A stretch of DNA of 64,000 nt, taken from a virus. The stretch covers positions 1 through 64,000 of the IMG/VR virus record IMGVR_UViG_3300048687_000070. One strand, written 5' to 3'. Numbering within the stretch: the first letter of the stretch is position 1; each line of letters opens with the position of its first letter. A program made the position numbers and the translations under genes. This document shows, one piece after another, positions 2,054 through 60,241 of this stretch. The notes under the pieces are model-generated. The model made no database searches, was not told the DNA's origin, and worked only from the letters and a program-made list of their open reading frames with translations.

Positions 2054-2485
2054 ATGGCCACCGTCTGCAAGCTGTACCGCGGCGAAAAACCGCAGCTCAT
2101 CCCGCCCAACGTGTGGACGCTCGTCACCTACGAGAAGACCCTCTCCAACGACCGGTCGATGATGCGCGACCGGGCGCTGATCATGCCGCCGTTCGACGGC
2201 GACTTCATCTGGGCGCGCAACCTCCGCTGGGCGGCCATCGACATCCCAGACGGCGACACCCGCGTCCGCCAGATCATGTCCCGGTTCATCCGCGACCCGC
2301 ACGGCATCCGCGACGACACCGGGGCCGACGACCGGGTCGCCACACCCGGCCGCTCCTGGCAGACCGTGTGCTGGCCCTTCGCCGGCCAGGCCAATCAGGC
2401 CGTGGGCGTCGAGGTCTGGCACGACCACCACGAGGCGTGGCCCCTCGAGCACGCCCAATTCGTCGGCACAACCAGCGACTACTAG
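2054..2485 (+). CDS. Conserved tail-region protein
   Basis: 143 residues, ATG with GAGGAG at 2042-2047 overlapping the previous stop. It is rich in W and D and has no membrane segment or recognisable motif. Lying between fibre-type genes and the endolysin in a continuous operon, it is most likely a small virion or tail-tip accessory protein. I do not recognise the family. Confidence 0.5.
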   Translation: MATVCKLYRGEKPQLIPPNVWTLVTYEKTLSNDRSMMRDRALIMPPFDGDFIWARNLRWAAIDIPDGDTRVRQIMSRFIRDPHGIRDDTGADDRVATPGRSWQTVCWPFAGQANQAVGVEVWHDHHEAWPLEHAQFVGTTSDY

Positions 2486-14999: not shown

Positions 15000-16397
15000 T
15001 CACTCCTCGCCATCAACCGAAAGATCATTTTCGCTGGGGAGGATCTGGGGAGATCCAAGTTCAAGCGGATCATCAGGAGCCGCAGGCGACTCCACGGCCC
15101 CCGCCGACATGAAGCGACCAATCGCCTCACGCCCACGGCTGCCAGACTTCGGCATGAAGTGCACGTAAGTCCTCAGGGTAAACCCGGGATCCGAGTGCCC
15201 CAGCCAGTCGGCCAACTTCCCGATGTCCTCACCCTCCGAGAGCACCACACTCGCGAACGTGTGCCGCAACACGTGAAAGCCGTAATGCCGGGGCATGCTC
15301 CACGCCACCTTGTCCCACCCCCGCCGGCCGCCCTTCGGCTCCACGGGAGTCACCACCGGAGGGTCAATGAGGCCGGCCTTCACCAGAGCAGGCTTCCATG
15401 TGCGGTTGTTGAAGCTGTCCCTGTTGACCGCCCCACCCCGCTTGGTGTTCGAGTACCGCGATGTCACCAGCAACCTGACGGTCACCTTCGGCCGGTCCTC
15501 CCAGGCCAGGTTCGGACGGTCCGGATCCACCCACGGCAGCGTCACCTCCTGCGTCGGGAAAAGGTTCTGGTACTCCTTGACCGCCGCCGCCAGCTCCGGC
15601 GGGCACGGCGCCACACGCTCCTTGTTGCCCTTCGGGGGACCGAAGCCGAACTGCCCATTGGCCTTGATCACTTGCCGCACCACGTGGATGTCCTCGCCGT
15701 CGATGTCGTCCGGCGAGAAGCCGAACGCCTCCCCTTGCCGCAGGCCGGCGCCGAGCCCGAGCAGAAGCAGCACGGCGTACCGCTCCGGAAGGGCGTCGCG
15801 GACCGCGGCCACGGTCTCCTGAGGCCAGGCGATGGCCTTGGACTTCGGGATCCTGGGGGGCTTGAGGTCCGGATCGCGAAACGGGTTCGCGGGGATCCTC
15901 TTGGCCTTATGGGCGGCCTGCAGGATGGATGAGAAGTGGGCCCACGTGACAACCAGTGTGCCGACGTCGACACTCCGGTTCACCTTCGCCTGCCATGCGC
16001 GGATCTCGTCGAAGCCGATCCGGTTCAGGGGGAGGCTGCCAACGTGCGGCACGATGTGCCTGAACACCCGCGACCGAACGTTGAACTTGGAGCTTGGCGG
16101 GTAGCGGGTGGTGGGCCACCAGTAGTCATTGATGTAGTCGGCCAGGGCCATGGTGCCGTCGCGCGGGTCGTACCAGTCGCCGCGCCCACTGTCCGTCTGG
16201 GCGTTGGCCAGCCAGTCCTTCGCCGCCCCCAGCTGCTTGTCGGGGAACGACCGGGAACGCACACCGGGAATGCCGGTGACCTTGTACCGCATGCCCTGGC
16301 CGTGGCGTTTGGTGGGAACTCGGGTCGGCTTCTTCTTCGGGTCGTCCGGATCGGGCGGGCCCTGCTTGTACCACCGGTCCTCGATGTAGCCGGGCAT
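15000..16397 (-). CDS. int: Phage tyrosine integrase
   Basis: 465 residues, the full length of an actinophage tyrosine integrase. An N-terminal arm-binding segment (about 35-95) and a core-binding SAM-like domain (about 100-175) precede the catalytic domain with Arg220 (GAGLRQGE), His375 and Arg378 (FHVLRHTFAS), His401 (WLGHSDPG) and nucleophile Tyr411 (LRTYVHF). It would integrate the phage at attB and, with an excisionase, reverse the reaction. It is the second gene of a leftward unit with 16420-16863, transcribed toward the candidate attP. Confidence 0.93.
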   Translation of the reverse strand: MPGYIEDRWYKQGPPDPDDPKKKPTRVPTKRHGQGMRYKVTGIPGVRSRSFPDKQLGAAKDWLANAQTDSGRGDWYDPRDGTMALADYINDYWWPTTRYPPSSKFNVRSRVFRHIVPHVGSLPLNRIGFDEIRAWQAKVNRSVDVGTLVVTWAHFSSILQAAHKAKRIPANPFRDPDLKPPRIPKSKAIAWPQETVAAVRDALPERYAVLLLLGLGAGLRQGEAFGFSPDDIDGEDIHVVRQVIKANGQFGFGPPKGNKERVAPCPPELAAAVKEYQNLFPTQEVTLPWVDPDRPNLAWEDRPKVTVRLLVTSRYSNTKRGGAVNRDSFNNRTWKPALVKAGLIDPPVVTPVEPKGGRRGWDKVAWSMPRHYGFHVLRHTFASVVLSEGEDIGKLADWLGHSDPGFTLRTYVHFMPKSGSRGREAIGRFMSAGAVESPAAPDDPLELGSPQILPSENDLSVDGEE

Positions 16398-28974: not shown

Positions 28975-30000
28975 ATGCCCTGGGTCCGTTTGGACGATCG
29001 CTTCCCCTCGCACCGCAAGGTGGCGCTGCTGTCCGATCGCGCCTTCAGGCTGTACATCTCGGGCCTCTGCTGGTGCTCGGAGAACCTCACCGAAGGCAAG
29101 ATCCTCGACCGTGAACTCGCCGTCGTGTCCCGAGTCCGAGGCCTCAAGGCCGCCGCGAAAGAGCTCGAAGAAGCCCACCTGTGGGATCGGGTTAGCGGCG
29201 GCTGGCAGATCCACGACTACCTCGAATACAACCCCGAGCGCGCCAAGATCCAGGCCGATCGTCAGGCCAATGCCGCCCGGCAGCAGTCATTCCGCGACCG
29301 GAAGAAAGCGGAGCGCGCAGCCAAGAAGGTCGCCGAAGAAGCAGCCCGTAACGCCATGCGTAACGGCGTTACGGACCCTGCCGAGAACGGCGAAAACGAT
29401 ACGACGGCGACAGGAACGCGACACGACGACGACACGACGACGCGAGAAAGCCACGCGCAAAATCAGCGATCGTCGCAGGTCAGCGAGATTCGTAACGCCG
29501 TTAATAACGGCACCCCCGTCCCACTCCCCGTAGTTCCTCCTACGGAGGAACTACAACAACAGAAAGCTAGCTACGAAGAGCCCGCCCGCATCGGCGATCG
29601 CCCCCGCATCCCCGATGCCTCGCGCCCCCTCGTCGACAAGATCACCGCCCAAGGCATGGTCGTCGGCTGGGACCTGCAGCCCAACGAGTGGTTCCTCATC
29701 GACGCCCTCATCCGTCGCTGCGGCGTGGACGCCCTCGTCGTCTCCGCGGTCGGCAGCTGGCAGGGCGCCCGCAGACAGCCCCGTTCCGCCCGCTACTTCA
29801 TCCCGGCATGGCGAGACGTGCCCGACGCGATCACCCCAGAAGCGCCCCACGAACACTCCCTGCCCATCGCGGTCGGACAGGTCGTTCCGATCAACGGCCA
29901 GCAGCGCCCCGCCACTTCAGACCTCCGCACCCAACAGGCGATCGAGACCGGTCGCCGCCTGCAAGCCCTCGCCGACGCCAAGAACCAGGAGAACCGATGA
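28975..30000 (+). CDS. Replication initiator-like winged-helix protein
   Basis: 341 residues. The first 95 residues form a winged helix (MPWVRLDDRFPSHRKVALLSDRAFRLYISGLCWCSENLTEGKI...LEEAHLWDRVSGGWQIHDY), like lambda-O/DnaD-type phage initiators. A Thr/Asp/Arg-rich linker (about 110-205) is encoded by DNA full of repeats, and a C-terminal helical domain (about 205-320) could contact a helicase loader. The ATG follows AGAGAGAAG. The origin-like repeats inside the gene support an initiator role. Confidence 0.65.
   Translation: MPWVRLDDRFPSHRKVALLSDRAFRLYISGLCWCSENLTEGKILDRELAVVSRVRGLKAAAKELEEAHLWDRVSGGWQIHDYLEYNPERAKIQADRQANAARQQSFRDRKKAERAAKKVAEEAARNAMRNGVTDPAENGENDTTATGTRHDDDTTTRESHAQNQRSSQVSEIRNAVNNGTPVPLPVVPPTEELQQQKASYEEPARIGDRPRIPDASRPLVDKITAQGMVVGWDLQPNEWFLIDALIRRCGVDALVVSAVGSWQGARRQPRSARYFIPAWRDVPDAITPEAPHEHSLPIAVGQVVPINGQQRPATSDLRTQQAIETGRRLQALADAKNQENR
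29347..29554. other. Candidate replication origin inside the replication gene
   Basis: Within the linker-coding part of 28975-30000: CGTAACGCC (29347-29355), palindrome CGTAACG-G-CGTTACG (29359-29373), CGTAACGCCGTTA plus AATAACGG (29491-29510), and a perfect inverted repeat with arms GTAGTTCCTCC (29530-29540) and GGAGGAACTAC (29544-29554). The segment is more A/T- and ACGA-rich than its surroundings. The layout parallels the lambda origin, which lies inside gene O. Confidence 0.6.
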
Positions 30001-41346: not shown

Positions 41347-41790
41347 ATGAGCACAACCGTACAGCCCGCGCCCCTGGCGCTGGAGTCCACTTCCCGTCTC
41401 GTCCCGGCGATGGTTGGCCGGCCGGGCGCCACGCAGACCGTATGGATCACCTGCCCCGCATGGTGCTCCCAGGACCACCTCGCTGACCGTGAGGTCGCGA
41501 TCGAGGACATCGACCACTACTCGACCCCGTCGGGCTGGAGTGTCGGTTCGATCCTCGCCCCTGACGAGGCCGTGCACGACCTGTACGTGCGGGTCCACTC
41601 GGACCCGATGCACGAGCTGCCCGCTCTGCGTGAGGCGCATGTCCTCCTCGGCAACGGCTCGCCGTTCGACTCGTACCTGACGCCGGACATGGCGGAGGCG
41701 ACGGCCGACGAGCTGGTCGCCATGGCCTCCCAGATCCGCCAGGCCGCCACCATCGCCCGCGAGCAGCAGGTCGGGGAGGTGTCGTCATGA
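41347..41790 (+). CDS. DUF6907-like protein
   Basis: 147 residues from ATG 41347 with AGGGAGA upstream. VWITCPAWCSQDHLADREVAIEDIDHYS is the Cys/His motif of Streptomyces DUF6907 proteins, which are common at the start of Spd/Tra modules. ELVAMASQIRQAATIAREQ forms a C-terminal helix. Frames starting further upstream lie in the leader and are not supported. Confidence 0.65.
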   Translation: MSTTVQPAPLALESTSRLVPAMVGRPGATQTVWITCPAWCSQDHLADREVAIEDIDHYSTPSGWSVGSILAPDEAVHDLYVRVHSDPMHELPALREAHVLLGNGSPFDSYLTPDMAEATADELVAMASQIRQAATIAREQQVGEVSS

Positions 41791-42005
41791 CGACCACCCT
41801 GAGCCCCGCCGACGTTGCCGCCCACGAGCTGGCCTCCTATGTCCGTCCCCGCCGGATCCTGCAGCGTTTCCCGGCTGGTGGCCCGCGCGGCTCCTGGCCG
41901 GCGGAGGAGTACGCGAACCAGCGTCGCCTGGAGGGTCAGCCCGCCGAGGTCGTGATGGATCTTCGGTCTGACGCGTTCCTGGTGATCGTCCGGGAGGCGT
42001 CGTGA
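41787..42005 (+). CDS. Small hypothetical protein
   Basis: 72 residues in ATGA overlap: VAAHELASYVRPRRILQRFPAGGPRGSWPAEEYANQRR. Unknown function; part of the transfer operon. Confidence 0.5.
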   Translation: MTTTLSPADVAAHELASYVRPRRILQRFPAGGPRGSWPAEEYANQRRLEGQPAEVVMDLRSDAFLVIVREAS

Positions 42006-42265
42006 GTGGCTCTCGGTTGACGTCCGCGGTGCAGGCGGTGATTGCGGTCGGTCGGGCGATGCGGGCTGCGGATCCGTTGCCGGATGCGTCGCCGTGGCTG
42101 GTGTTTGAGCTGCGGGATCCGGCCGGCGAGCTGCTTTTTGACGGTCATCTGTCGTGGCTGGGTGCGGAGCGGGTGGTGGCGGTGTTGGAGGCGGCTGCGG
42201 CCGTGCAGCACCGTCGGCCGGCCGCTCCGACTCGCCCGCGGTTGCATCTGGTGCGTAACCCCTAG
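42002..42265 (+). CDS. Small hypothetical protein
   Basis: 87 residues from GTG in overlap. Helix-strand-strand-helix pattern with WLVFELRDPAGELLFDGHLSWLGAERVVAVLEAAAAVQ. No family known. Confidence 0.5.
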   Translation: MSGSRLTSAVQAVIAVGRAMRAADPLPDASPWLVFELRDPAGELLFDGHLSWLGAERVVAVLEAAAAVQHRRPAAPTRPRLHLVRNP

Positions 42266-42350
42266 ACCGCCGCGGTCGACGGTCGATCCCCCCATCCCGT
42301 CGGCCGCGGCGCCCACCCACACCCCAACTTCCCGAGAGGGCTTGATCGTG

Positions 42351-42590
42351 ATGTCTCCGTTCCTGTCCGACGCCGATCTGGGCGTCACCGACATCGGCCG
42401 CAAGAAGCGCGCCTCGACGACCGTCGGCGACGTGTCGGACGCCTACGCCGCCCAGCTGATCGACGAGTACCTGGCCGCGCGCGCCGCCCGCAGCTTCGAG
42501 CTCATGGCGTTGATCCGCGACCACGCCGCCGCGATCGACCCGCTCCTCGTCGACGAGCTCGACGGCATCGACTACCCGGCCGCCGCCTGA
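42351..42590 (+). CDS. Small acidic helical protein
   Basis: 79 residues; start at ATG 42351 (GTG 42348 possible). SDAYAAQLIDEYLAARAARSFELMALIRDHAAAIDPLLVDELDG. No motif. The 85 bases before it contain no gene. Confidence 0.5.
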   Translation: MSPFLSDADLGVTDIGRKKRASTTVGDVSDAYAAQLIDEYLAARAARSFELMALIRDHAAAIDPLLVDELDGIDYPAAA

Positions 42591-42733
42591 TGTGGGGCCA
42601 GCTGCTGGTCATCGTCATCGTCGGCGCCCTGTTCCTCGCGACGGGCTGGCTTCGGTGGCGCATCGAGCAGCCGGAGCGGGTCGAGTGTCGTGGCCACGGC
42701 TGCTGCCACACCTGCTGCAAGGGAGCTGCGTGA
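42590..42733 (+). CDS. 47-residue membrane microprotein
   Basis: Membrane helix at about 4-22 (QLLVIVIVGALFLATGWLRW) and a Cys-rich tail, CRGHGCCHTCC. It begins and ends at overlaps with both neighbours, which supports it. Small membrane proteins of this kind are typical of the Spd (spread) functions of Streptomyces plasmids. Confidence 0.6.
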   Translation: MWGQLLVIVIVGALFLATGWLRWRIEQPERVECRGHGCCHTCCKGAA

Positions 42734-43113
42734 TGGCCGCCGTTGACATCACGTCGTTCGGCTACCTGCACGACGGGCCGCCGGCCGCGCACCTGACGGT
42801 CGATCTGCGCCAGCACTTCCGCGACCCGCACGTTAGCCCGGAGCTGCGCCACATGACCGCCGACGACGAGCCGGTCCGTACCGCGGTCCTGAACACGCCC
42901 GGCCTCTCTGCGCTGGTGCAGGCCGTGACCGCGGCGGTCGAGGCGTTCGCGTCCGGCCCGTCCGCCGGTGCCGTCACGGTCGCCGCCGGGTGTGCGGGAG
43001 GCCGGCATCGCGCTCCCACATTTGCCCGCGCTCTTGCCGACCTGCTTTCTGCAGCCGGCCACCAAATCACCGTCCAACACCGCGACATGGACAAGCCCGT
43101 CGTCCAGCGGTGA
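42733..43113 (+). CDS. Stand-alone RapZ C-terminal-domain protein
   Basis: 126 residues: VDITSFGYLHDGPPAAHLTVDLRQHFRDPH, ELRHMTADDEPVRTAVLNTPG and VAAGCAGGRHRAPTFARALADLL...HRDM are the signature blocks of the RapZ C-terminal domain. In enterobacteria this domain binds GlcN6P and small RNA and works with an N-terminal ATPase, which is absent here. The CxGGRHR loop is intact (CAGGRHR), so ligand or RNA binding may be kept. It lies in the transfer operon, with a tRNA-like hairpin immediately after the stop. Confidence 0.8.
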   Translation: MAAVDITSFGYLHDGPPAAHLTVDLRQHFRDPHVSPELRHMTADDEPVRTAVLNTPGLSALVQAVTAAVEAFASGPSAGAVTVAAGCAGGRHRAPTFARALADLLSAAGHQITVQHRDMDKPVVQR

Positions 43114-44431: not shown

Positions 44432-45244
44432 GTGAACAGCCCACCTTCCCGCGCCCGGTGGGATCCGCTCGTCGCGGTATCCCTGATCGCCGGTGTCGGC
44501 TTCACTGCGATCGCCGAGTACCAGCTCGCCAGAAAGATCGGCTCCCCGGTACCCGTGGCGGTACTACTGCCCGTGGCATTGGACGTGTACGTGGTCGCCG
44601 CCATCCGCCGCTCTCGCGGCCGGGACATCGCACTCGCACTCCTCCTCATGGGCGTCGCGCAGGTGTCGGCGCACATGCTCGAAGCCGGCGTCGTCGAGAT
44701 TTCAGTACCGCTCGTCGCGGCCGTCTCCGTCCTGGTACCGCTCGTCATCTGGCGGGTGCACGCGCTGGCGGTACTGCCGAAGAAGCAGCCCGCCGGTACC
44801 GGTACCGCCCCGGCCGTGAGCGAGCCGGTTCCGGACGCCACCGTCGAGCGAGTACCGGCATCCGCGCCCGCCCCGGTACCGCCTGCGGTACCGGTACCGC
44901 CCGCGAGCCGCCCGGAACTCGAGGCCGTACCGGAAGCAGTACCGGCCCCGGTACCGGTACGGCCGCGCCGCCCGAACAGCCAGAAGACGCCGCGCAGTAC
45001 CGCCCCGAAGTCCCGGCAGAAGAAGACCGGTACCGGCTCGTTCGACGACCACGTCCGCACCGCCATCGGCTGGCTCGGCGACGAACCGGACCTGTCCGGT
45101 ACCGCCATCGGCGAGCGGCTCGGTACCGGCGACTCCTACGGCCGCCGCGTGCGCCGCGAAGCCCTCGCGAAGGCCGGTACCGAACCGGCTCCTGGCCCCG
45201 AGCACCGGGACCACAACACCGACCAAATCCTCACCGGAAGCTGA
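44432..45244 (+). CDS. SpdB/DUF2637-like membrane protein
   Basis: 270 residues from GTG. Four hydrophobic helices in the first 115 residues (LVAVSLIAGVGFTAIAEYQLARKIG, VAVLLPVALDVYVVAAI, IALALLLMGVAQVSAHML, VPLVAAVSVLVPLVIW) match the DUF2637/SpdB2 type. A Pro/Val/Ala-rich linker (about 118-205) and a C-terminal HTH-like region follow (SFDDHVRTAIGWLGDEPDLSGTAIGERLGTGDSYGRRVRREAL). SpdB proteins cooperate with TraB in intramycelial spread. The gene has a remarkable density of GGTACC sites. Confidence 0.75.
   Translation: MNSPPSRARWDPLVAVSLIAGVGFTAIAEYQLARKIGSPVPVAVLLPVALDVYVVAAIRRSRGRDIALALLLMGVAQVSAHMLEAGVVEISVPLVAAVSVLVPLVIWRVHALAVLPKKQPAGTGTAPAVSEPVPDATVERVPASAPAPVPPAVPVPPASRPELEAVPEAVPAPVPVRPRRPNSQKTPRSTAPKSRQKKTGTGSFDDHVRTAIGWLGDEPDLSGTAIGERLGTGDSYGRRVRREALAKAGTEPAPGPEHRDHNTDQILTGS
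44548..45181 (+). repeat. Cluster of GGTACC palindromes inside the SpdB-like gene
   Basis: Twelve exact GGTACC hexamers begin at 44548, 44734, 44794, 44800, 44875, 44886, 44892, 44949, 45029, 45098, 45122 and 45176; five more GTACC with another first base lie between them. They encode Val-Pro in one frame and Gly-Thr in another, so the repeat is at DNA level. Candidate recognition sites for the adjacent TraB-like translocase. Confidence 0.65.
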
Positions 45245-45247
45245 CCC

Positions 45248-47389
45248 ATGAGCGCCCACCACACCGCGCCGGCCGACCCGAAGCCCGCCCTGAAACTCGT
45301 TCCCTCGACCGACACGGCCGTGCAGGTGTCGACTCGCCCGGAGCGGCGCCGCCTGCGCGCGGACCGACTGCGGCGCATCGTCGTCGCCACCCGCAACAAC
45401 CCGGGGTACCGGCTCGCCGTCCGGCACGGCGCCTACACCCTCGGCGGGACCCGCATCCTGACCCGTCGCGCCTGGGACGCACGGACCGCGGCCCGGTACG
45501 AGCGGATGATGCGCATCGCCGAAGCGTCCGGGAACGAGGAGGCCACACGGGTGTGGGAGCAGCGGGCCCACGCCTACCGGTTCGCCCGGCGCCGCGGACG
45601 CATGGAACTCCTGCAACTGATCCTCAACGCGCCCAAGGCGGTAGCCATGGGCGCGGGCGCAACCGCTGGCGTTCTCCTGCTGCTCGGGATGATGCTGGCC
45701 GCTGCCAGGGAAGACATCAGTGACGTCCTCGTCCCGCTCAACGCCGTGATTCAGCTGGTCAGCTGGGTTGCGTTCATCGCGGGCGTCGTCTGGCGGCCGT
45801 TGCTGGTGTCGCTGCCGTTCCTCGCTCTGGCCGGGGCGTGGGCGGTCGGACGCCACCAGAAGTCCGCACCGGTATGGGCACTGCCCGTCGACCCCGGCGA
45901 GCAGGGCATCGTCCCGGACGAGAACGCCATCATGCGGGCGCTGGGCAAGCTGAGCATCGCGGAGCTCAATGCGGCCATCAAGGAGGGCTGGCAGCCGCGT
46001 TGGGTGCAGGGCACCGTCCGCTCCGGCAACGGCTATCACGCCCAGCTGCAGCTTCCTCTTGGCGCCCCCGTCGAGATGATCATCAAGAAGAAGAATGTTC
46101 TCGCGCACAACCTGCTCCGCAAGCCCGTCGAAGTGTGGCCCACCGAGCCGCCCCGCATGCCTGGCGTCCTCGACCTGTGGGTCGCCGACCAGGGCTCCCT
46201 GTCCGGGAAGATCCCGAGTTGGCCGCTGCTGCACGAGGGCACGACCGACTACTTCGAGGGCGTTCCCCTCGGCGTGTCCCAGCGCGGTGATCCGATCATC
46301 GGGAAACTGATGGCCGCGAACTACATGGTCGGCGGGATCATGGGATCCGGTAAATCGTCGCTGGTCATCTCGCTGCTTCTGGGCGCCGCCCTCGATCCGA
46401 TCGTCGACATCGAGGCCTACGTCATGGCCTACAACGTCGACTACGACCCGCTCAAGCCCCGCATGAGCGTCCTGGTCAAGGGCGACGACGACGAGCAGCT
46501 GAAGACCGCCCTCGACCGGCTGCGCAGCCTGACCAACGAGGTCACCGAACGCGGCAAGCTGCTGGAGGAGCTCGGCGGCGAGACCACCAAGCTGACGCGG
46601 GAGCTTTCGCTGAGGGACCAGCGGATGCGGCCCAAGGTCATCGTTTTCGACGAGTGCCACGAGCTGTTCATGCACAAGGGCTACGGCAAAGAGGCCGCTG
46701 AACTGGCCATTCGCGTCATGAAGAAGGCCCGCAAGGTCGGTATCACCCTCATCTGGGTCACCGTGTCGCCGACCGCCGACAGCATCCCGCGCGACGTCAC
46801 CCGCAACACGAGTCACCGTGTCGCGTTCGCCGTCGGCGACCACGTCGCCAACGACGGACTGCTCGGCTCCGGCCGCCACAAGGCCGGCATCACCGCCACC
46901 ACACTCATCCCCGGCGAGGACGTCGGCACCGCCGTCACCGTCGGCTTCACCAGCAAGCCGTTCGAGGTGGTGCGCGCCCACTACGTGGCCCGCGACCCGG
47001 AAAAGAACATCGACCAGGTCACGCCCGTCGTCGAGCGCTCCTTGACGGCGTACAAGCGCGGCGACGTGTGGGAGGTGCCCGCACCCGAGAGGGTCGACCA
47101 CCTCGTCGACATCGCGAAAGTCCTCGGCCACGAACCCAAGCTGCTCACCCAGGACGTCCTGCACGAACTCCACAACCTGAACCCGGACGTCTACGGCGAG
47201 TGGACGTTCCGGGACCTGCGCAGCGTCCTCGACACGGCCGGCCACGGCGAGTACAAGACCGGCGGGCGCCAGCACGTCAGCCTCGACCGCATCCTCGACG
47301 CCATCGCCGCCCGCGACGAATACGCCTCCGAGGACGCCGTAGAGATCGGCTACAGCGAGGGAGGCGATGAGGGAGGAAGCGATACGTGA
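45248..47389 (+). CDS. TraB/FtsK-like DNA translocase
   Basis: 713 residues. Membrane helices at about 131-153 and 165-200 anchor a cytosolic FtsK/SpoIIIE-type motor with Walker A GIMGSGKS (363-370) and Walker B KVIVFDECH (463-471), followed by the arginine-finger region and a C-terminal winged-helix-like part (about 630-700). This is the architecture of Streptomyces TraB/TraSA proteins, which move double-stranded DNA between cells through a hexameric pore, recognising short clt repeats. Its location after an SpdB-like gene supports a conjugative rather than a cell-division role. Confidence 0.85.
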   Translation: MSAHHTAPADPKPALKLVPSTDTAVQVSTRPERRRLRADRLRRIVVATRNNPGYRLAVRHGAYTLGGTRILTRRAWDARTAARYERMMRIAEASGNEEATRVWEQRAHAYRFARRRGRMELLQLILNAPKAVAMGAGATAGVLLLLGMMLAAAREDISDVLVPLNAVIQLVSWVAFIAGVVWRPLLVSLPFLALAGAWAVGRHQKSAPVWALPVDPGEQGIVPDENAIMRALGKLSIAELNAAIKEGWQPRWVQGTVRSGNGYHAQLQLPLGAPVEMIIKKKNVLAHNLLRKPVEVWPTEPPRMPGVLDLWVADQGSLSGKIPSWPLLHEGTTDYFEGVPLGVSQRGDPIIGKLMAANYMVGGIMGSGKSSLVISLLLGAALDPIVDIEAYVMAYNVDYDPLKPRMSVLVKGDDDEQLKTALDRLRSLTNEVTERGKLLEELGGETTKLTRELSLRDQRMRPKVIVFDECHELFMHKGYGKEAAELAIRVMKKARKVGITLIWVTVSPTADSIPRDVTRNTSHRVAFAVGDHVANDGLLGSGRHKAGITATTLIPGEDVGTAVTVGFTSKPFEVVRAHYVARDPEKNIDQVTPVVERSLTAYKRGDVWEVPAPERVDHLVDIAKVLGHEPKLLTQDVLHELHNLNPDVYGEWTFRDLRSVLDTAGHGEYKTGGRQHVSLDRILDAIAARDEYASEDAVEIGYSEGGDEGGSDT

Positions 47390-53717: not shown

Positions 53718-54182
53718 ATGCCTCGTACCGCCAAGCCGGCGACCCTGAAGTTGATCGAGGGCCGGGCGGTCGGCCGGGACTCCGGGGGCCGCAAGGTCGA
53801 GAAGGGGCCGGCCTTCAAGCGGGTCCCGCCGGAGGCCCCGGAGTGGCTGTCCGAGGAGGCGGCCGCGGAGTGGGAGCGGGTGATGCCGGAGCTGTCCCGC
53901 CTGGATCTGGTGAAGGAGTCGGACCGGGCGGCCCTGGCGTCCTACTGCGAGGCGTGGGCGACGTTCCGCGAGGCGACGGAGACGGTTCAACGCGACGGTC
54001 TGACGATCGAGGCGCGGCAGGGAACGCTCGCGCACCCTGCGGTGGCGATCGCCCGCGCGGCGGGCCGCGAAGTGCGGTCGTGGGCGGCGCACTTCGGGCT
54101 GACTCCGTCGACGGAGCAGGCTCTGGCGCGAAGCGGGGGCGACGATGGCGACGAAGCGAACCCGTTCGCCGGCTCCGGCTGA
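53718..54182 (+). CDS. terS: Terminase small subunit (P27 type)
   Basis: 154 residues from ATG 53718 with GGGGAGA upstream. LKLIEGRAVGRDSGGRKVEKGPAFKRVPPEAPEWLSEEAAAEWERVMPEL and the helical DNA-binding remainder are the P27 family pattern. It recognises the packaging site and loads the large subunit. It overlaps terL by 38 bases. Confidence 0.85.
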   Translation: MPRTAKPATLKLIEGRAVGRDSGGRKVEKGPAFKRVPPEAPEWLSEEAAAEWERVMPELSRLDLVKESDRAALASYCEAWATFREATETVQRDGLTIEARQGTLAHPAVAIARAAGREVRSWAAHFGLTPSTEQALARSGGDDGDEANPFAGSG

Positions 54183-55866
54183 GCTGGGGATCAGTGCCGA
54201 GGTCGCCTGGTACATGAAGGAGCGGGGTATCCCGCTGCCGGACTGCCCGCCGAAGGTGCAGACCCCGAATCCGGGCGAGGCGCCGGGTGCGGTGTTCGAT
54301 CCGGCGAAGGTGGACCGGGTACTGACGTCGTTCCATCTGCTGCGGCACACGCAGGGCAAGTGGGCGGGCAAGCCGCTGGATCCGGATCCGTGGCAGGTGG
54401 CCTATGTGCTTGCGCCCGTCTTCGGGTGGGTGCGCTGGGACGACGAGGCCGAGGGCTACGTGCGGATCGTCCGCAAACTGTACGTGGACGTGCCACGGCG
54501 TAACGGTAAGACGACGCTGTCGGGAGGCATCGCCGTCTACCTGATGGCGGCGGACTCCGAGCCGGGCGCCCAGGTGTACGCCGCGGCGACCAGCGAGAAG
54601 CAGGCCCGGTACACGTTCGACCCGATCAAGACGATCGCGGAGCGGGCGCCGGCGTTGAAGGGCAACGTCAAGGCGTACACGAAGAAGATCACGCACCCGG
54701 CGTCGGGCTCATACTTCACGGTGGTCTCGTCGGTGGCGGAGGCCCTGCATGGGGCGAATGTCCACGGTGGCATCATCGACGAGCTGCACGTCCACAAGAG
54801 CCCGGATCTCGTCGAGACGATCGAGACGGGCACCGGCTCCAGGCGTCAGCCTCTCGTGGTGATCATCACGACGGCGGATGAGGGCAAGCAGGAGTCGATC
54901 TACGACCGGAAGCGGCAGTACATCGAGCAGCTGGCCCGCGGCTCCCTGCACGACCTGGACACCTACGGCGTGGTGTGGGGCGCGGACGAGGACGACAATC
55001 CTCACGACGAGGCGACCTGGCGCAAGGCGAACCCCGGCTACGGCGTATCCCCTTCGGCCGCGTACCTGCGCGGCGCGTCCGCCGAGGCCCAGCAGTCGCC
55101 CGCGGACCTGGCGAAGTTTCTGCGCCTGCACTTGGGTATCCGCACCAAGCAGTCGACGCGCTTCCTGATGATGGACTCCTGGGACAACAACGCGGGCCTC
55201 GTCGACGAGGAGGCGCTGCGCGGCCGGGACACCTGGGGCGGCCTCGACCTCGCGTCGACGTCCGACCTGTGCGCGCTGTGCTGGCTGTTCCCGGACGACG
55301 AGACGGGAACGCTGGATGCGCTGTGGCGGTTCTGGACACCGGAGGACAACCTCAAGGCGCTGGACAAGCGCACCGCGGGCGCGGCGACGAAGTGGGTGCG
55401 GCAGGGCTACCTGACGACAACGCCCGGCAACGTCGCCGACTACGACTTCATCGTCGAGCAGATCAAGCGCGACCGGGACGCGTTCACGGTGAAGAGCATC
55501 GGCTACGACCCCTGGAACGCCTCGCAGTTGACGAACACACTGGTCGCGGAGCGGGCGCCGATGGTGAAGGTCCGGCAGGGCTTCGCCACCATGAGCCCGG
55601 TCTTGAAGGAGATTCAACGGCTGGTGCTGCAGGGCACCCCGCGGGCTCCGGCGTTGCGGCACGGCGGCCATCCGGTGGTGCGCTGGTGCGTCGACAACCT
55701 TGCCGTGACCATGGACCCGGCGGGCAATGTGAAGCCCGACAAGGCCAACTCGGGTGACAAGATCGATGGCGTGTCTGCGCTGGCCACCGCCATGGCAGAG
55801 ATCGTGGCCCGGCCCCCGAAGCGGCGTTCCGCATACGAGGACGCCGACGAAATGATGATCGTGTGA
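54145..55866 (+). CDS. terL: Terminase large subunit
   Basis: 573 residues. ATPase domain with Walker A VPRRNGKTT (116-124) and Walker B GIIDEL (209-214, Asp212/Glu213); nuclease domain starting with WGGLDLAST (Asp368) and a late acidic motif DGVSALATAMAE. HK97/phiC31-like TerL that packages DNA into proheads and cuts at cos. Confidence 0.93.
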   Translation: MATKRTRSPAPAELGISAEVAWYMKERGIPLPDCPPKVQTPNPGEAPGAVFDPAKVDRVLTSFHLLRHTQGKWAGKPLDPDPWQVAYVLAPVFGWVRWDDEAEGYVRIVRKLYVDVPRRNGKTTLSGGIAVYLMAADSEPGAQVYAAATSEKQARYTFDPIKTIAERAPALKGNVKAYTKKITHPASGSYFTVVSSVAEALHGANVHGGIIDELHVHKSPDLVETIETGTGSRRQPLVVIITTADEGKQESIYDRKRQYIEQLARGSLHDLDTYGVVWGADEDDNPHDEATWRKANPGYGVSPSAAYLRGASAEAQQSPADLAKFLRLHLGIRTKQSTRFLMMDSWDNNAGLVDEEALRGRDTWGGLDLASTSDLCALCWLFPDDETGTLDALWRFWTPEDNLKALDKRTAGAATKWVRQGYLTTTPGNVADYDFIVEQIKRDRDAFTVKSIGYDPWNASQLTNTLVAERAPMVKVRQGFATMSPVLKEIQRLVLQGTPRAPALRHGGHPVVRWCVDNLAVTMDPAGNVKPDKANSGDKIDGVSALATAMAEIVARPPKRRSAYEDADEMMIV

Positions 55867-55878
55867 CGGGGGTGGGCT

Positions 55879-56097
55879 GTGTTCGCGTGGCGTCGTACCG
55901 CAGTGCGTAAGCGGGTTGTGGTGAACCTGGCGGACAAGGCTTTCTCCGGGGTGCTGTGGGCGCAGCGCGGCCCGCTCCTGGTCCTGCGCGACGTGGAACT
56001 GCTGGAGGCCGGCCGGGAGGCTGCGCGGGTGGATGGCGAGGTCGTCGTGGAGCGGTCCCGCATCGAGTTCACCCAGGTGCTGGCGGGCGGTGGCTGA
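55879..56097 (+). CDS. Small head-module protein
   Basis: 72 residues from GTG. Beta-rich: VVVNLADKAFSGVLWAQRGPLLVLRDVELLEAGREA. A conserved small gene between terL and portal in Streptomyces phages; role unknown. Its stop overlaps the portal ATG. Confidence 0.55.
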   Translation: MFAWRRTAVRKRVVVNLADKAFSGVLWAQRGPLLVLRDVELLEAGREAARVDGEVVVERSRIEFTQVLAGGG

Positions 56098-58031
56098 TGG
56101 CGTTCGTGGTGTCCTCTGGGCAGATGCAGCTGACGGGTGCGGGGTCGCTGCTGTCGTATGGGGCGGCGTCGCCGCTGTCGCAGGCATCGTGGGAATACGC
56201 GGCGATGTGGCGGGCTCAGCCGCAGGTGCGCACGGTGGTCAACTTCCTGGCCAGGAACATTGCGCAGCTCGGCCTGCACACGTACCGCCGGGTGTCGGAC
56301 ACGGACCGGCAGCGCCTGACGGATCATCCTGTGGCGCAGCTCCTCGGCGAGCCGCTGCCACGGGTGACGACATACCGGCTCATTGAGCGCCTGATCTCGG
56401 ATCTGGCGATCTACGACGAGGCGTACTGGATCAAATGGAATCGTGACGGCCGCCGACTGCTGCTCCCGGTCCCGCCCACGCTGATCCGCCCCTCTGAGGG
56501 CAACTGGGTCGCACCCAAGGAGTACGTGACGGCCGGCGGGATCAAGTTCGATCCGGAGCAGGTCGTGCACTTCCACGGCTATTCGCCGGAGGATCTAGTC
56601 GTCGGGGCCTCGCCGTTGGATGCCCTGCGTGCGCTGCTCCTTGAGGAGAGCGAGTCGACGAAGCAGCGGGCCGCGATGTGGCGCAACGGCGCCCGCGCGA
56701 CCGGTGTGCTGGTGCGTCCCGCGGATGCCGAACCGTGGTCGCCGGAGGCGAAGCGGCGGTTCGGTGAGATGTGGCGGACGTTCTCGCAGGGGGGTGGCGC
56801 CGAGGGCGGTACGCCGATCCTTGAGGACGGCATGACGTATGACCAGATCGCGATCGATCCGCAGCGCGCCCAGTACATCGAGTCCCGCAAGCTGTCGCGC
56901 GAGGAGGTCGCTGCGGCCTACCACATTCCTCCGCCGCTGGTCGGGATCCTGGATCACGCGACGTACTCGAACATCACCGAGCAGCACAAGATTCTCTATC
57001 AGGACACGCTCGGCCCTTGGCTGACGATGGTGCAGCAGGAGGTTTCGGCGAACCTGCTCTCCGACCTGCCGGACAGCAAGGACGTCTACGTCGAGTTCAA
57101 CATCGCGGAGAAAATGCGCGGGAGCTTCGAGGAGCAGGCCGCCGCCGCGTCGACGGCGACGGGCGGGCCGTGGATGACCCGCAATGAGCAGCGCGCCCGG
57201 TTCAATCTGCCGCAACTGCCGGACGGCGACGAGCTGATCACGCCGATGAACGTCACCGAGGGCGGGATGGCATCACCTCGGGACACCGCGCCGGAGCCTG
57301 ACGCACTCCCAAAAGCGCGAGCCCGGCAGGTGACCACCAAGGCCGGGCAGCCTTCGGAGGCGTCTCCGCTCGATGACCTGCGCGAGCAGTTCGCGACGGA
57401 GCTCGGTGGTCTCACCGACGCGCAGTTCGCCGACCTTGTCGAGTCGGCGCCGGGTGGCGTGGATACGGTGAGGGCCTGGTGGGAGAGCGGGCGCGCGGTG
57501 CGCCAGGCCCGCTTCCTGAAGGTCATCAACGACTACATGGTCCGCGCTGGCCTGCTTGCAGCGCGCCGCGTCCTGGATGAGTTCAACGCGTCCGGAGATG
57601 GCTGGTCCGCAGAGGTGATGGATCCCTGGCTGGCCGCGGCGGCACTGCACCACGCGGAACTGCATGACGCGGCCGGCCAGCAGGCGGCGGTGGAGGCGGC
57701 CGAAGCCCCGACCGAGGAGGGCGGCATCGCGGGCGCCCTGCTTCTGGCCGGCGGCCTGTGGGCGCTGGCCGCACTGCGGCGCAGCGAGACCGCGGTGACC
57801 GAGGCGGTGTCCTTCGGTGGTCACGATGCCGCGACGGCGTCCGGACTGAGCCACAAGGAGTGGCACACGACGAGCGGTCATCCCCGCTCGCAGCATGCCG
57901 CCTTGAACGGGGAGAAGGTCCCCGTCGACGCCCTGTTCTCCAACGGGCTGCGTTGGCCCGGCGATGCGACGGGCGATGCGGATGAGACAGCGAACTGCCG
58001 CTGCGTATTGACGTATTCACTGACGGAGTAG
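56097..58031 (+). CDS. Portal protein fused to a MuF-type head protein
   Basis: 644 residues. Residues 1-400 are an HK97-type portal (WRAQPQVRTVVNFLARNIAQLGLHTYRR; GYSPEDLVVGASPLDALRALL; REEVAAAYHIPPPLVGILD). After a flexible linker (about 395-430), the C-terminal 200 residues carry MuF-like features ending ALNGEKVPVDALFSNGLRWPGD and ETANCRC. The portal forms the dodecameric DNA gate; MuF domains assist head assembly or enter with DNA. They are usually separate genes. Confidence 0.88.
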   Translation: MAFVVSSGQMQLTGAGSLLSYGAASPLSQASWEYAAMWRAQPQVRTVVNFLARNIAQLGLHTYRRVSDTDRQRLTDHPVAQLLGEPLPRVTTYRLIERLISDLAIYDEAYWIKWNRDGRRLLLPVPPTLIRPSEGNWVAPKEYVTAGGIKFDPEQVVHFHGYSPEDLVVGASPLDALRALLLEESESTKQRAAMWRNGARATGVLVRPADAEPWSPEAKRRFGEMWRTFSQGGGAEGGTPILEDGMTYDQIAIDPQRAQYIESRKLSREEVAAAYHIPPPLVGILDHATYSNITEQHKILYQDTLGPWLTMVQQEVSANLLSDLPDSKDVYVEFNIAEKMRGSFEEQAAAASTATGGPWMTRNEQRARFNLPQLPDGDELITPMNVTEGGMASPRDTAPEPDALPKARARQVTTKAGQPSEASPLDDLREQFATELGGLTDAQFADLVESAPGGVDTVRAWWESGRAVRQARFLKVINDYMVRAGLLAARRVLDEFNASGDGWSAEVMDPWLAAAALHHAELHDAAGQQAAVEAAEAPTEEGGIAGALLLAGGLWALAALRRSETAVTEAVSFGGHDAATASGLSHKEWHTTSGHPRSQHAALNGEKVPVDALFSNGLRWPGDATGDADETANCRCVLTYSLTE

Positions 58032-58033
58032 CC

Positions 58034-58921
58034 ATGCGGATCAAATCCTGCCCGGTGCGGATCAAGGCCGCGGGCACCCATGAAGGCACCGACGAGGGCG
58101 TGTTCGAGGCCATCGTCGCCGCCTACAACCTGGACAGCGTCGGCGACAAGATCGCGCCGGGCGCATTCGCCGAGACCCTCGCCGAGTGGAAGGGGCGCGG
58201 CGACCCGATCCCGGTCCTGTGGTCGCACATGTCCCACGACCCCGAGTACCACATCGGCTACGTCGAGGATGCCGAGGAGCGCCCTGAGGGCCTGTGGGTG
58301 AAGGCCCGCATCGACCTCGACGAGGGCACGAAGGCCGCCCAGGTCTACAAGCTGATGAAGGGCCGCCGGGTCACCCAGTTCTCCTTCGCCTACGACGTGG
58401 AAGAGGGCTCCTGGGTCGACGAGAAGGAAGGCCCCGGCCACTACGAGCTGCGCAAGCTGAAGCTGTACGAGGTGGGCCCGACACTGATCGGAGCCAATCA
58501 GGCCACCGAGCTGCTGGACGTGAAGTCCGCGGCCGGTGCCTCTCTGCGCATCGCCATGGACGGCGCGACCACGCAGTTCGCCGACGAGGCGTGCACGGCC
58601 GTCGAGAAGGCCATGGACGACCACCTCACGCACGTGCGCGAGGCCGTGACCGCGGCCATCGACGCCAAGGCTGGCAGGACGCTGTCGGCCGCCAACGAGG
58701 AACGCGTTCGTGAGATCGCGCGCCTTTCCACGGAGCTGCTGGACTCCCTGCCCTCCAGCACCGAAGACGCCGAGAAGGCCACGCCGACCCCGCCTGAGTC
58801 CGCCTCGCCGCAGGAGCCTGCGGCCAAGGCCGACGAGCAGGCCCGGCCCGGAACCGCCTCGCTCCGTCTGCGCACCGACATCGAGGTTTTCGCCCTCGGT
58901 GCCTCCACGCTCACGGACTGA
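58034..58921 (+). CDS. HK97-type prohead protease
   Basis: 295 residues. The U35 protease domain (1-165) has the catalytic His65 in LWSHMSHDP, Ser117 in TQFSFAYDV and Glu146 in LYEVGPTLIG. The C-terminal 130 residues are helical and acidic, and may act as a scaffold segment. It cleaves scaffold/delta peptides during capsid maturation. Confidence 0.9.
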   Translation: MRIKSCPVRIKAAGTHEGTDEGVFEAIVAAYNLDSVGDKIAPGAFAETLAEWKGRGDPIPVLWSHMSHDPEYHIGYVEDAEERPEGLWVKARIDLDEGTKAAQVYKLMKGRRVTQFSFAYDVEEGSWVDEKEGPGHYELRKLKLYEVGPTLIGANQATELLDVKSAAGASLRIAMDGATTQFADEACTAVEKAMDDHLTHVREAVTAAIDAKAGRTLSAANEERVREIARLSTELLDSLPSSTEDAEKATPTPPESASPQEPAAKADEQARPGTASLRLRTDIEVFALGASTLTD

Positions 58922-58930
58922 GGAGACTCA

Positions 58931-60241
58931 ATGAGCAAGGTCAAGGAGCTCACGGACGAGCTCACGCATCACTTGAAGGCCCTGCAGGACATCTCGGCGA
59001 AGACCGAGGAAGAGAACCGGGACTTCACCGACGAGGAGCGTTCGCTCGTCGTCGAGCACATGGAAAAGGCCAAGGCCGCCAAGGAGTCTCTGACCCAGGC
59101 CAAGGCGGACGGCGACATGCTGAAGGCCATCGCCGAGCTCGGTGACAGCATCGGTGTCACCGAGACCAAGAGCGAGAAGCGCACCCCGTCCGGGCTGATC
59201 GTGCCCGAGCGCAAGAGCGTTGGCGAGCACTACGTCGACTCGCCGGAGTACAAGAGCCTGCTGGCCACCGCCCCCAACGGAGGGTTCGGCGCCAAGCAGC
59301 GCGTGCAGTCCCTGCCGACCGGGTTCAAGAGCCTGGTCACCGGCACCTCGGACACCTCCGGCGGCGCGTTCGTGCAGAACGACTACCTCGGCCTGCAGGT
59401 CGCCGCAGACGCCTTCCAGCGCCCGCTGACCCTGCGCGACGTCGTCACGTCCGGCACGACGACGTCCGACACCGTCGAGTACGTGCGGATGACCAGCTAC
59501 ACCAACAACGCGGCCCCGGTGGCGGAGGCCACGTCGTCGGCAGCCCCGACGGCTCCGGGCGGAGCGGGCGCCCTGGTCAACAACGCGGGGGGCGGCTACA
59601 AGCCGGAGTCGGCGCTGGCCGCGGCGAAGGTCACCACGCCGGTCCGCACGATCGCCCACTGGATCCCGATCACGAAACGGGCCCTGTCGGACGCCGCGCA
59701 GATCCGCACCCTCATCGACGCCTTCCTCCGCTACGGCCTGGAGGAGGAGCTCGAAGACCAGATGATCGGCGGTGACGGCACCGGCGAGAACTTCGAGGGC
59801 CTCGGCAACGTGTCAGGCGTGCAGGCGCAGGCCTGGGACACCAACGCGCTCACCACGCTACGCAAGGCCAAGACGAAGGTCCGCCTCGTCGGCCGCTCGC
59901 TGGCCAACGCCTACCTGCTCAACCCGGCCGACCTGGAGTCCATCGACCTCCTGCAGGACAACGAGGCCCGCTACTACTTCGGCGGCCCTGCCGGCGTCGG
60001 CACTGCAGGCACCCTGTGGGGCCTGCCGGTCATCGAGACCGAGGCCGTCCCCTCAGGCGTCGGCTACGTCGGCGACTTCCGCAAGGCGATCCTGTGGGAC
60101 CGCGAGCAGGCATCGATCAGCGTCACCGACAGCCACGCCGACTTCTTCGTCCGCAACCTCGTCGCGATCCTCGCCGAGATGCGGGCCGCGTTCGGCGTCA
60201 TCCAGCCCAACGCCTTCGTCGAGGTCGACCTCACCGCCTAA
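58931..60241 (+). CDS. Major capsid protein (HK97 fold)
   Basis: 436 residues. An N-terminal coiled-coil delta region (about 1-60) and the HK97 core (about 95-436), with typical strands ALAAAKVTTPVRTIAHWIPITKRALSDAAQI, LEDQMIGGDGTGENFEGLGN and the C-terminal FGVIQPNAFVEVDL. Directly after the protease. AGGAG upstream. Confidence 0.93.
   Translation: MSKVKELTDELTHHLKALQDISAKTEEENRDFTDEERSLVVEHMEKAKAAKESLTQAKADGDMLKAIAELGDSIGVTETKSEKRTPSGLIVPERKSVGEHYVDSPEYKSLLATAPNGGFGAKQRVQSLPTGFKSLVTGTSDTSGGAFVQNDYLGLQVAADAFQRPLTLRDVVTSGTTTSDTVEYVRMTSYTNNAAPVAEATSSAAPTAPGGAGALVNNAGGGYKPESALAAAKVTTPVRTIAHWIPITKRALSDAAQIRTLIDAFLRYGLEEELEDQMIGGDGTGENFEGLGNVSGVQAQAWDTNALTTLRKAKTKVRLVGRSLANAYLLNPADLESIDLLQDNEARYYFGGPAGVGTAGTLWGLPVIETEAVPSGVGYVGDFRKAILWDREQASISVTDSHADFFVRNLVAILAEMRAAFGVIQPNAFVEVDLTA

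Follow-up and report, generated by a model that had tools for sequence, protein, structure and literature searches.

Comparison with described systems

Binding sites for a protein within its own gene are already known from SpdA2/sps of pIJ101 (PMC4170104) and from RepC (PMC2783167). The subject of the present analysis is a gene at positions 44432–45244 of a 64,000-base stretch of DNA (the window), which comprises the first 64,000 bases of the 88,184-base viral record IMGVR_UViG_3300048687_000070. It encodes a protein with a predicted membrane domain, a linker and a C-terminal helix-turn-helix (HTH), and its coding sequence carries a dense array of a single short word of DNA, which is replaced by another word in related genes with a different HTH. 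Related loci are designated by L numbers.

The closest precedent is SpdA2/sps. SpdA2 is a DNA-binding protein of a Streptomyces mobile element that binds short palindromic sites in its own coding region and affects segregational stability, not transfer (PMC4170104). In contrast to the membrane-HTH protein of the window, SpdA2 is zinc-finger-like, contains 135 amino acids (aa) and has no membrane domain. Its site is one conserved 12-bp palindrome (CGTCACGTGACG) that occurs on many plasmids in two to three repeats, whereas about 10–39 copies are present in the arrays described here, and the word differs from one HTH to another; sps is not among the words that were identified (CGGTACCG, CGGAACC and others). 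RepC also has sites in its own coding sequence; unlike the membrane-HTH proteins described here, whose genes carry dense arrays of a short word that varies, it is a replication initiator (PMC2783167).

Two further systems are similar in other respects. SpdB2 of pSVH1 is a membrane protein that is reported to bind DNA non-specifically and to contact TraB (PMC4170104). The likeness to SpdB2 and the DUF2637 family lies in an integral membrane protein with DNA binding near a TraB-type translocase, and two of the loci compared, L017 (below the cut-off) and L285, match DUF2637; however, the DNA binding reported is non-specific, the spdB gene of pIJ101 has no array, and the window protein matches no Pfam family. 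The TraB/TraA–clt systems (pSVH1, pJV1, pWTY27; PMC3583192) have arrays of short repeats near the translocase gene of Streptomyces elements. There the translocase itself reads the repeats, whereas here the word follows the HTH of another protein and lies wholly inside the gene for that protein. No description of membrane-HTH genes with arrays of their own was found in the open-licence literature searched, a search for DUF2637 likewise gave nothing relevant by title and abstract, and nothing relevant to the GGTACC word was found by title among the literature matches listed.

The word array

The array and the gene that carries it are located as follows.

44432–45244, + strand: array gene, an open reading frame of 270 aa coding for membrane domain, linker and C-terminal HTH.
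44518–45181, strand-neutral: array of 22 GTAC cores (12 GGTACC, 16 GTACCG, 14 CGGTAC) with the core consensus CGGTACCG.

Exact GGTACC words start at 44548, 44734, 44795, 44801, 44875, 44887, 44893, 44950, 45029, 45098, 45122 and 45176. The 12 copies and five further NGTACC hexamers that a preliminary description had counted in 44548–45181 were exact on recount; a sixth NGTACC lies just ahead of that stretch, at 44518. The window as a whole contains 20 GGTACC, compared to 8.69 expected (sd 2.89; largest of 100 shuffles 19), and these shuffles give an expectation of about 0.09 for 634 bp, in agreement with the earlier estimate of well under one. The density is 14.8/kb in the array gene and 0.13/kb in the rest of the window, and a corresponding count over relatives revealed arrays in L016, L017 and L018.

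A membrane-HTH gene is here called self-arrayed if a word is over-represented against a synonymous null in more than one reading frame. In the window gene, GTACCG is over-represented with a z of 13.9 (largest null 4.3), and the 12 GGTACC are distributed over the frames as 6/0/6: six encode Gly-Thr (GGT ACC), six encode Val-Pro (x-GTA-CC) and none is in the third frame. With the protein sequence fixed, codons redrawn from background usage yielded a mean of 0.38 GGTACC (maximum 3 in 500), and shuffling of the gene's own synonymous codons a mean of 3.80 (maximum 8 in 500). The observed number is far above both nulls, in two frames; therefore, selection acts on the DNA word itself, as had been proposed. 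The earlier assignment of Val-Pro to the linker and Gly-Thr to the C-terminal domain was right about the two frames and too strict about the regions, since the membrane part also contains Val-Pro copies, and the linker accounts for two of the six Gly-Thr copies.

The encoded protein

Three regions of the protein were distinguished.

44465–44770, + strand: residues 12–113, four long hydrophobic helices, predicted membrane domain (AlphaFold helices 12–36, 40–60, 66–84 and 92–113).
44771–45040, + strand: residues 114–203, disordered linker rich in Val-Pro and Gly-Thr (predicted local distance difference test, pLDDT, mostly below 50).
45041–45175, + strand: residues 204–248, C-terminal HTH, ...LSGTAIGERLGTGDSYGRRVRREAL, defined by the HTH alignment (pLDDT 91–96 over residues 201–250, in blocks of ten).

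The AlphaFold model, built on an alignment of 21 sequences, displays a confident three-helix HTH at residues 204–248, with an overall predicted template modelling score (pTM) of 0.29. The first four helices are likely to be in the membrane, as suggested by their hydrophobic sequence and a weak DUF2637 match (PF10935) of the related L017 protein, which scores 18.9 bits, below the cut-off of 22.8; L285 scores 25.2 bits, above it. The window protein matches no Pfam family at E≤1, PF10935 included, and no PHROG at E≤0.1. In a Foldseek comparison of its HTH fold with the PDB, nothing reached E≤0.001; the highest-ranking entries were HTH and winged-helix regulators at E of about 0.7.

The HTH of L034 has a weak match to Sigma70 region 4 (E 0.074). 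GGAAC is the -35 word of some extracytoplasmic function (ECF) sigma factors, and the match would fit a GGAAC reader; we regard it as a lead only. Additionally, the region ahead of the membrane domain in L017 (L017:5002-6186) shows weak matches to the polar-growth proteins Scy (E 0.0021) and DivIVA/Wag31 (E 0.065). These probably reflect coiled-coil similarity only, and would fit a tether located at the tip.

Codon choice and site placement

Related genes were grouped by their word into class A (GGTACC) and class B (GGAACC). In six class A genes, Val-Pro is written as GTA-CCN in 53 of 64 cases, compared to 43 of 319 in 185 background genes, and Gly-Thr as GGT-ACC in 32 of 40, compared to 5 of 379. 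The 25 class B genes write Glu-Pro as GAA-CCN in 159 of 183 cases (background 44/214) and Gly-Thr as GGA-ACC in 117 of 143 (background 23/379; class A 0/40). Fisher tests on these four contrasts gave p below 1e-26 each, for genes that are related and thus not independent. Between the window and L016, 21 of the 23 same-amino-acid codons inside sites are unchanged, and 149 of 196 outside them, which is in the expected direction and weak by itself.

The sites are confined to the gene. For the six class A genes, 178 core sites (GTACCG or CGGTAC) are inside (34.7/kb), eight are within 300 bp downstream, and the density at 300–3000 bp is 0.36/kb. None is present in the 300 bp upstream; exact GGTACC occurs 68 times inside and twice in the 300 bp upstream. 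The 24 class B genes analyzed contain 400 core sites (CGGAAC or GTTCCG), with 20.5/kb in the gene and 0.67/kb farther away. The linker is the densest part in both classes: core sites per kb in linker, HTH and end, and membrane part are 69.2, 32.2 and 13.1 in class A, and 38.0, 21.8 and 0.8 in class B. In class A, the conserved membrane part itself contains 32 core sites, which is evidence against simple co-inheritance of an HTH-plus-linker block.

This placement bears on autoregulation as the only role, in which the HTH would bind its own gene and a roadblock of many protein molecules would stop transcription, with the membrane part sensing or limiting. Sites inside the gene are what a roadblock requires. 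However, the absence of GTACCG and CGGTAC from the 300 bp upstream of all six class A genes, for which a promoter operator was also rejected, and a number of sites (10–39) that appears to far exceed the needs of repression make this explanation unlikely.

The words could also be non-functional and have arisen as a side effect of repeats expanding in a linker rich in proline, or of unusual codon usage. The linkers are indeed repetitive, with some spacings of 6 or 12 bp, and lookalike GGTACC clusters exist elsewhere: those in L287, L298 and L304 are single-frame protein repeats, and that in L249 is a tandem DNA repeat. By contrast, the arrays use two or three frames with irregular spacing and extend into the conserved membrane part, the codon usage of the window gene does not yield its array, and each HTH has a different word. 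Furthermore, the number of sites is kept while their positions turn over: five class A genes have 19–22 sites each, and of 41 aligned positions nine are common to all and 17 are seen once. A by-product is thus highly improbable.

The sense strand of class B genes contains 345 CGGAAC and 68 GTTCCG (71 and 60 in background genes). A strict polarity like that of FtsK orienting polar sequences (KOPS) is not claimed, since sites occur in both orientations in L021 and L103, and since the class A word is a palindrome.

The word follows the HTH of its own gene

A profile of four HTHs matched in 12 of 392 Streptomyces genomes, one of them the genome of L018. Nine genes from these genomes (L020–L028) have GGAACC arrays; the HTH matches of L029 and L030, both without an array, are distant or due to chance. 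A scan of viral contigs with the GGAACC family gave 21 loci, with GGAACC/GGTTCC arrays in 19 and a GGTACC array in L104. One residue of the HTH accompanies the difference in word.

45128–45130, + strand: codon of Gly233, which is Gly in 6 of 6 GGTACC genes and Ser in 25 of 25 GGAACC genes.

The residue table omits L098 (a near-copy of L097), L102 (frame broken at the 3' end), L105 (weak), L095 (a duplicate of L026) and L266 (equal to L018 over the 700 bases compared). L101 and L106 (LGTSDSYGRRVRR) differ little in this region from class A (LGTGDSYGRRV[RK]R), yet carry GGAACC. The words listed for the HTHs of the window, L101, L015 and the plasmid SAP1 protein WP_011109698.1 are CGGTACCG, CGGAACCG, CGTACCCG and CGTACAGG, respectively.

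The gene next to the array gene offers a different candidate reader.

45248–47389, + strand: FtsK/SpoIIIE-like translocase, probable partner and very probably not the reader of the word (phrog_1358, E 1.2e-20; PF01580, E 3.6e-5).

The translocase gene starts three bases after the array-gene stop codon, and its product scores 23.8 bits against the FtsK_SpoIIIE Pfam model, just under the cut-off of 24. The preliminary description had suggested that the array may be the clt of this translocase, embedded in coding DNA. On this reading, GGTACC would be recognized by the C-terminal winged helix of the FtsK/TraB-like protein, in the way that the 8-bp repeats of pSVH1 are recognized by its TraB. The known clt loci do consist of repeats in the vicinity of tra, with an overlap of 16 bp with tra in one case (PMC3583192). 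However, the array gene of L016 is 82% identical to that of the window, with seven GGTACC and 13 GTACCG, although its translocase is only 33% identical (39% in the C-terminal part). Conversely, the translocases of L015 and L011 are 60% and 59% identical to that of the window (63% and 48% over the C-terminal 110 aa), and the membrane-HTH genes upstream of them have a different HTH and a different word, CGTAC[CT]CG. Nine translocase relatives, L011 and L015 among them, were found in viral contigs (59–77% identity, best segment), and no GGTACC cluster was found near any of them, where the sequences of L008 and L012 hold little or nothing upstream.

An array is also present where no such translocase is adjacent. 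L017, a Streptomyces plasmid with phage-tail-like genes, has nine GGTACC and an HTH in common with the window, with a membrane domain that is 38% identical; no FtsK-like translocase was seen in the 12-kb stretch examined. L018, a Streptomyces genome contig, has an array gene that is 66% identical to that of the window, with 14 GGTACC. FtsK-like genes adjoin GGTACC genes (window, L016, L018), GGAACC genes (L101, L106) and loci of the CGTACYCG class (L011, L015, L080), whereas a phrog_16379 membrane gene, and not a translocase, is beside most GGAACC genes as well as L077 and L078. This small multi-helix membrane protein (L034:8323-8835 and homologues; function unassigned) is encoded in the place of the translocase after most GGAACC genes.

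Domain swaps are consistent with this pattern. The membrane domains of L015 and L023 are 67% identical and their HTHs and words are different. Those of L021 and L023 are 31% identical, with the same HTH class and word. For L011 and L015, the membrane domains cannot be aligned, the HTHs are related (12 of 32 residues identical) and the word is the same. In class C (L011, L015 and L074–L080, of which L074 is close to L015, and L075 to L076), seven of nine genes are clearly above the largest null, L078 is above it by one, and L077 equals it.

Thus, in these comparisons the word follows the HTH of the protein encoded by the gene that carries it, not the neighbouring translocase. A clt is required in cis for conjugal transfer, and its repeats are recognized by the translocase that belongs to it, through the C-terminal domain; the covariation does not support that relation here, as far as binding can be judged from sequence, and we rejected it as very unlikely. 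A protein-binding array in coding DNA, as the preliminary description had suggested, is retained as the best reading, with the gene's own HTH in place of the translocase as the very likely reader. A transfer role for the array, read by the array protein, is possible.

Occurrence in plasmids and phages

Among 150 called genes scanned for over-represented words, 14 had z≥6 and all of these are membrane-HTH genes; L015 was next at 5.2, followed by an unrelated gene at 5.1. When the L015 protein was used as a tblastn query, genes of about 600–770 aa on Streptomyces plasmids were found, in which a long coiled coil, predicted from the sequence, precedes the membrane domain. Members of this Streptomycetaceae family combine a coiled coil, a membrane domain, a linker and an HTH, and 53 plasmid records contain the family, SAP1 of S. 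avermitilis among them. Arrays were found in 13 of the 14 genes tested, with z of 8.2–19.6 (largest null in any such scan 6.7). The words again differ with the HTH: CGTACAG is found with LSVN-type HTHs (GTACGG ranks first in the S. rochei variant, LNVN), CCGTACGG with the ...GCNRDRAVRLL-type HTH (L459, L460, L463), CCGGTA in L457 and L458, and CGCTCA in an Embleya gene. The arrays of L457, L458, L459, L460 and L463 are mainly in one frame, and codon choice is the evidence for these.

As controls, spdB, tra and neighbouring genes of pIJ101 gave z of 2.5–4.5. Only one of 30 DUF2637 genes of Streptomyces genomes, L043, has an array (seven GTTTCG in three frames, z 7.8), and it is possibly on a mobile element.

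A scan of viral contigs on DNA alone, for three GGTACC-type sites, gave 116 stretches. Together with a looser two-site scan, 225 loci were taken, of which 13 have at least nine GGTACC in 700 bp. Five of these encode membrane proteins and have arrays. Two of the five, L275 and L266, are class A array genes. L285 has a putative HTH first and the DUF2637-like domain last (z 12.3), and L320 has a hydrophobic N-terminal part, a linker and an IclR-type HTH (z 6.2). L297:3431-5071 encodes a 547-aa membrane protein with 39 GGTACC in three frames (z 21.5), for which no Pfam match was found and no DNA-binding domain was identified. The other eight of the 13 comprise the repeat clusters of L287, L298, L304 and L249 mentioned above and four dense GGTACC clusters, in L230 (6569-7089), L299 (1840-2043), L288 (3852-3997) and L213 (3332-3948), that either are non-coding or cannot be assigned clearly to a membrane-HTH gene. 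Since GGTACC also occurs in unrelated clusters, the type of protein cannot be predicted from a DNA scan alone.

Neighbouring genes in the record

The window contains phage genes for an integrase (15000–16397, - strand), a replication-initiation-like protein (28975–30000) and, at 54145–60241, the terminase large subunit, portal and major head protein. The 88-kb record has a second, different phage integrase gene (L005 17215–18468, - strand; record 81215–82468). Late and early genes also occur twice in the record, in similar sets (for example, window 2054–2485 and L005 9447–9878); the arrangement looks like two related prophages side by side. DUF6907 genes are located slightly upstream of the array gene in GGAACC prophages (L034:6533-7383), and the window genes at 41410 and 42730 (41410–43113) are similar by eye. 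When a phage collection was searched with the window translocase, or with the array protein of the window, L034, L015 or L285, nothing matched.

A replication origin with iterons, and a protein that is an initiator binding its own gene, would have a parallel in RepC of repABC plasmids (PMC2783167). However, the window phage has a separate replication-initiation-like gene, and the array protein has a predicted membrane domain and, in Pfam and PHROG searches, no replication domain. An origin is therefore improbable.

Proposed function

The account that we favor, and hold to be somewhat probable on the sequence comparisons above, is that of a membrane-anchored DNA tether that reads an address array in its own gene. 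The C-terminal HTH would recognize the word CGGTACCG, of which about 20 copies are written into the gene, mostly where the flexible linker is coded. The array would be bound jointly by numerous protein molecules at the membrane, and the phage DNA molecule with the gene would thereby be pinned there. A membrane machine would then probably take over the pinned DNA to move or segregate it; here this machine would be the adjoining FtsK-like translocase, and elsewhere a different membrane gene product. Movement or segregation of the element appears to be the likeliest purpose by analogy, because of the FtsK-like neighbours, the distribution over phages and plasmids, and the published behaviour of SpdA2/sps and SpdB2.

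Several observations weigh against this account. Membrane-HTH genes without an array are located beside close translocase relatives (L007, L010, L013), the Kitasatospora plasmid gene L461 has no array in the plasmid-family test, and L105 has no clear array in the scan of viral contigs. The Gly/Ser switch is one change on the HTH tree (97/86 support), which includes 28 of the 31 rows of the residue table and L105, and is thus one evolutionary event and not 31. Word and HTH are in one gene, so that linkage explains part of the correlation. The argument for HTH binding to the word is one of covariation, and the membrane location is predicted from a sequence and a model with the overall pTM given above. 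Finally, the window phage has an integrase, and therefore plasmid-style partition is not obviously needed.

The chances are about even that the tether is part of a self-addressing design common to Streptomycetaceae phages and plasmids, in which a membrane-anchored HTH protein has a dense array of a private word in its own gene. The word would serve each element as its specific address, either as a self-centromere or as a self-transfer site, by which co-resident elements are kept apart. The linker composition (Val-Pro, Glu-Pro, Gly-Thr, Arg-Thr) would be largely a by-product of the word, and a change of HTH would lead to the whole array being rewritten.

If this is correct, a hypothetical gene on many Streptomyces plasmids and prophages would gain a testable job. 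Each copy of the gene would be labelled with its own predicted binding site, providing a natural catalogue of HTH-to-word pairs with at least seven words, and coding DNA would be seen in which the protein sequence is bent toward a second, non-coding use. The arrays may also hint at how unrelated mobile elements in one hypha are told apart.
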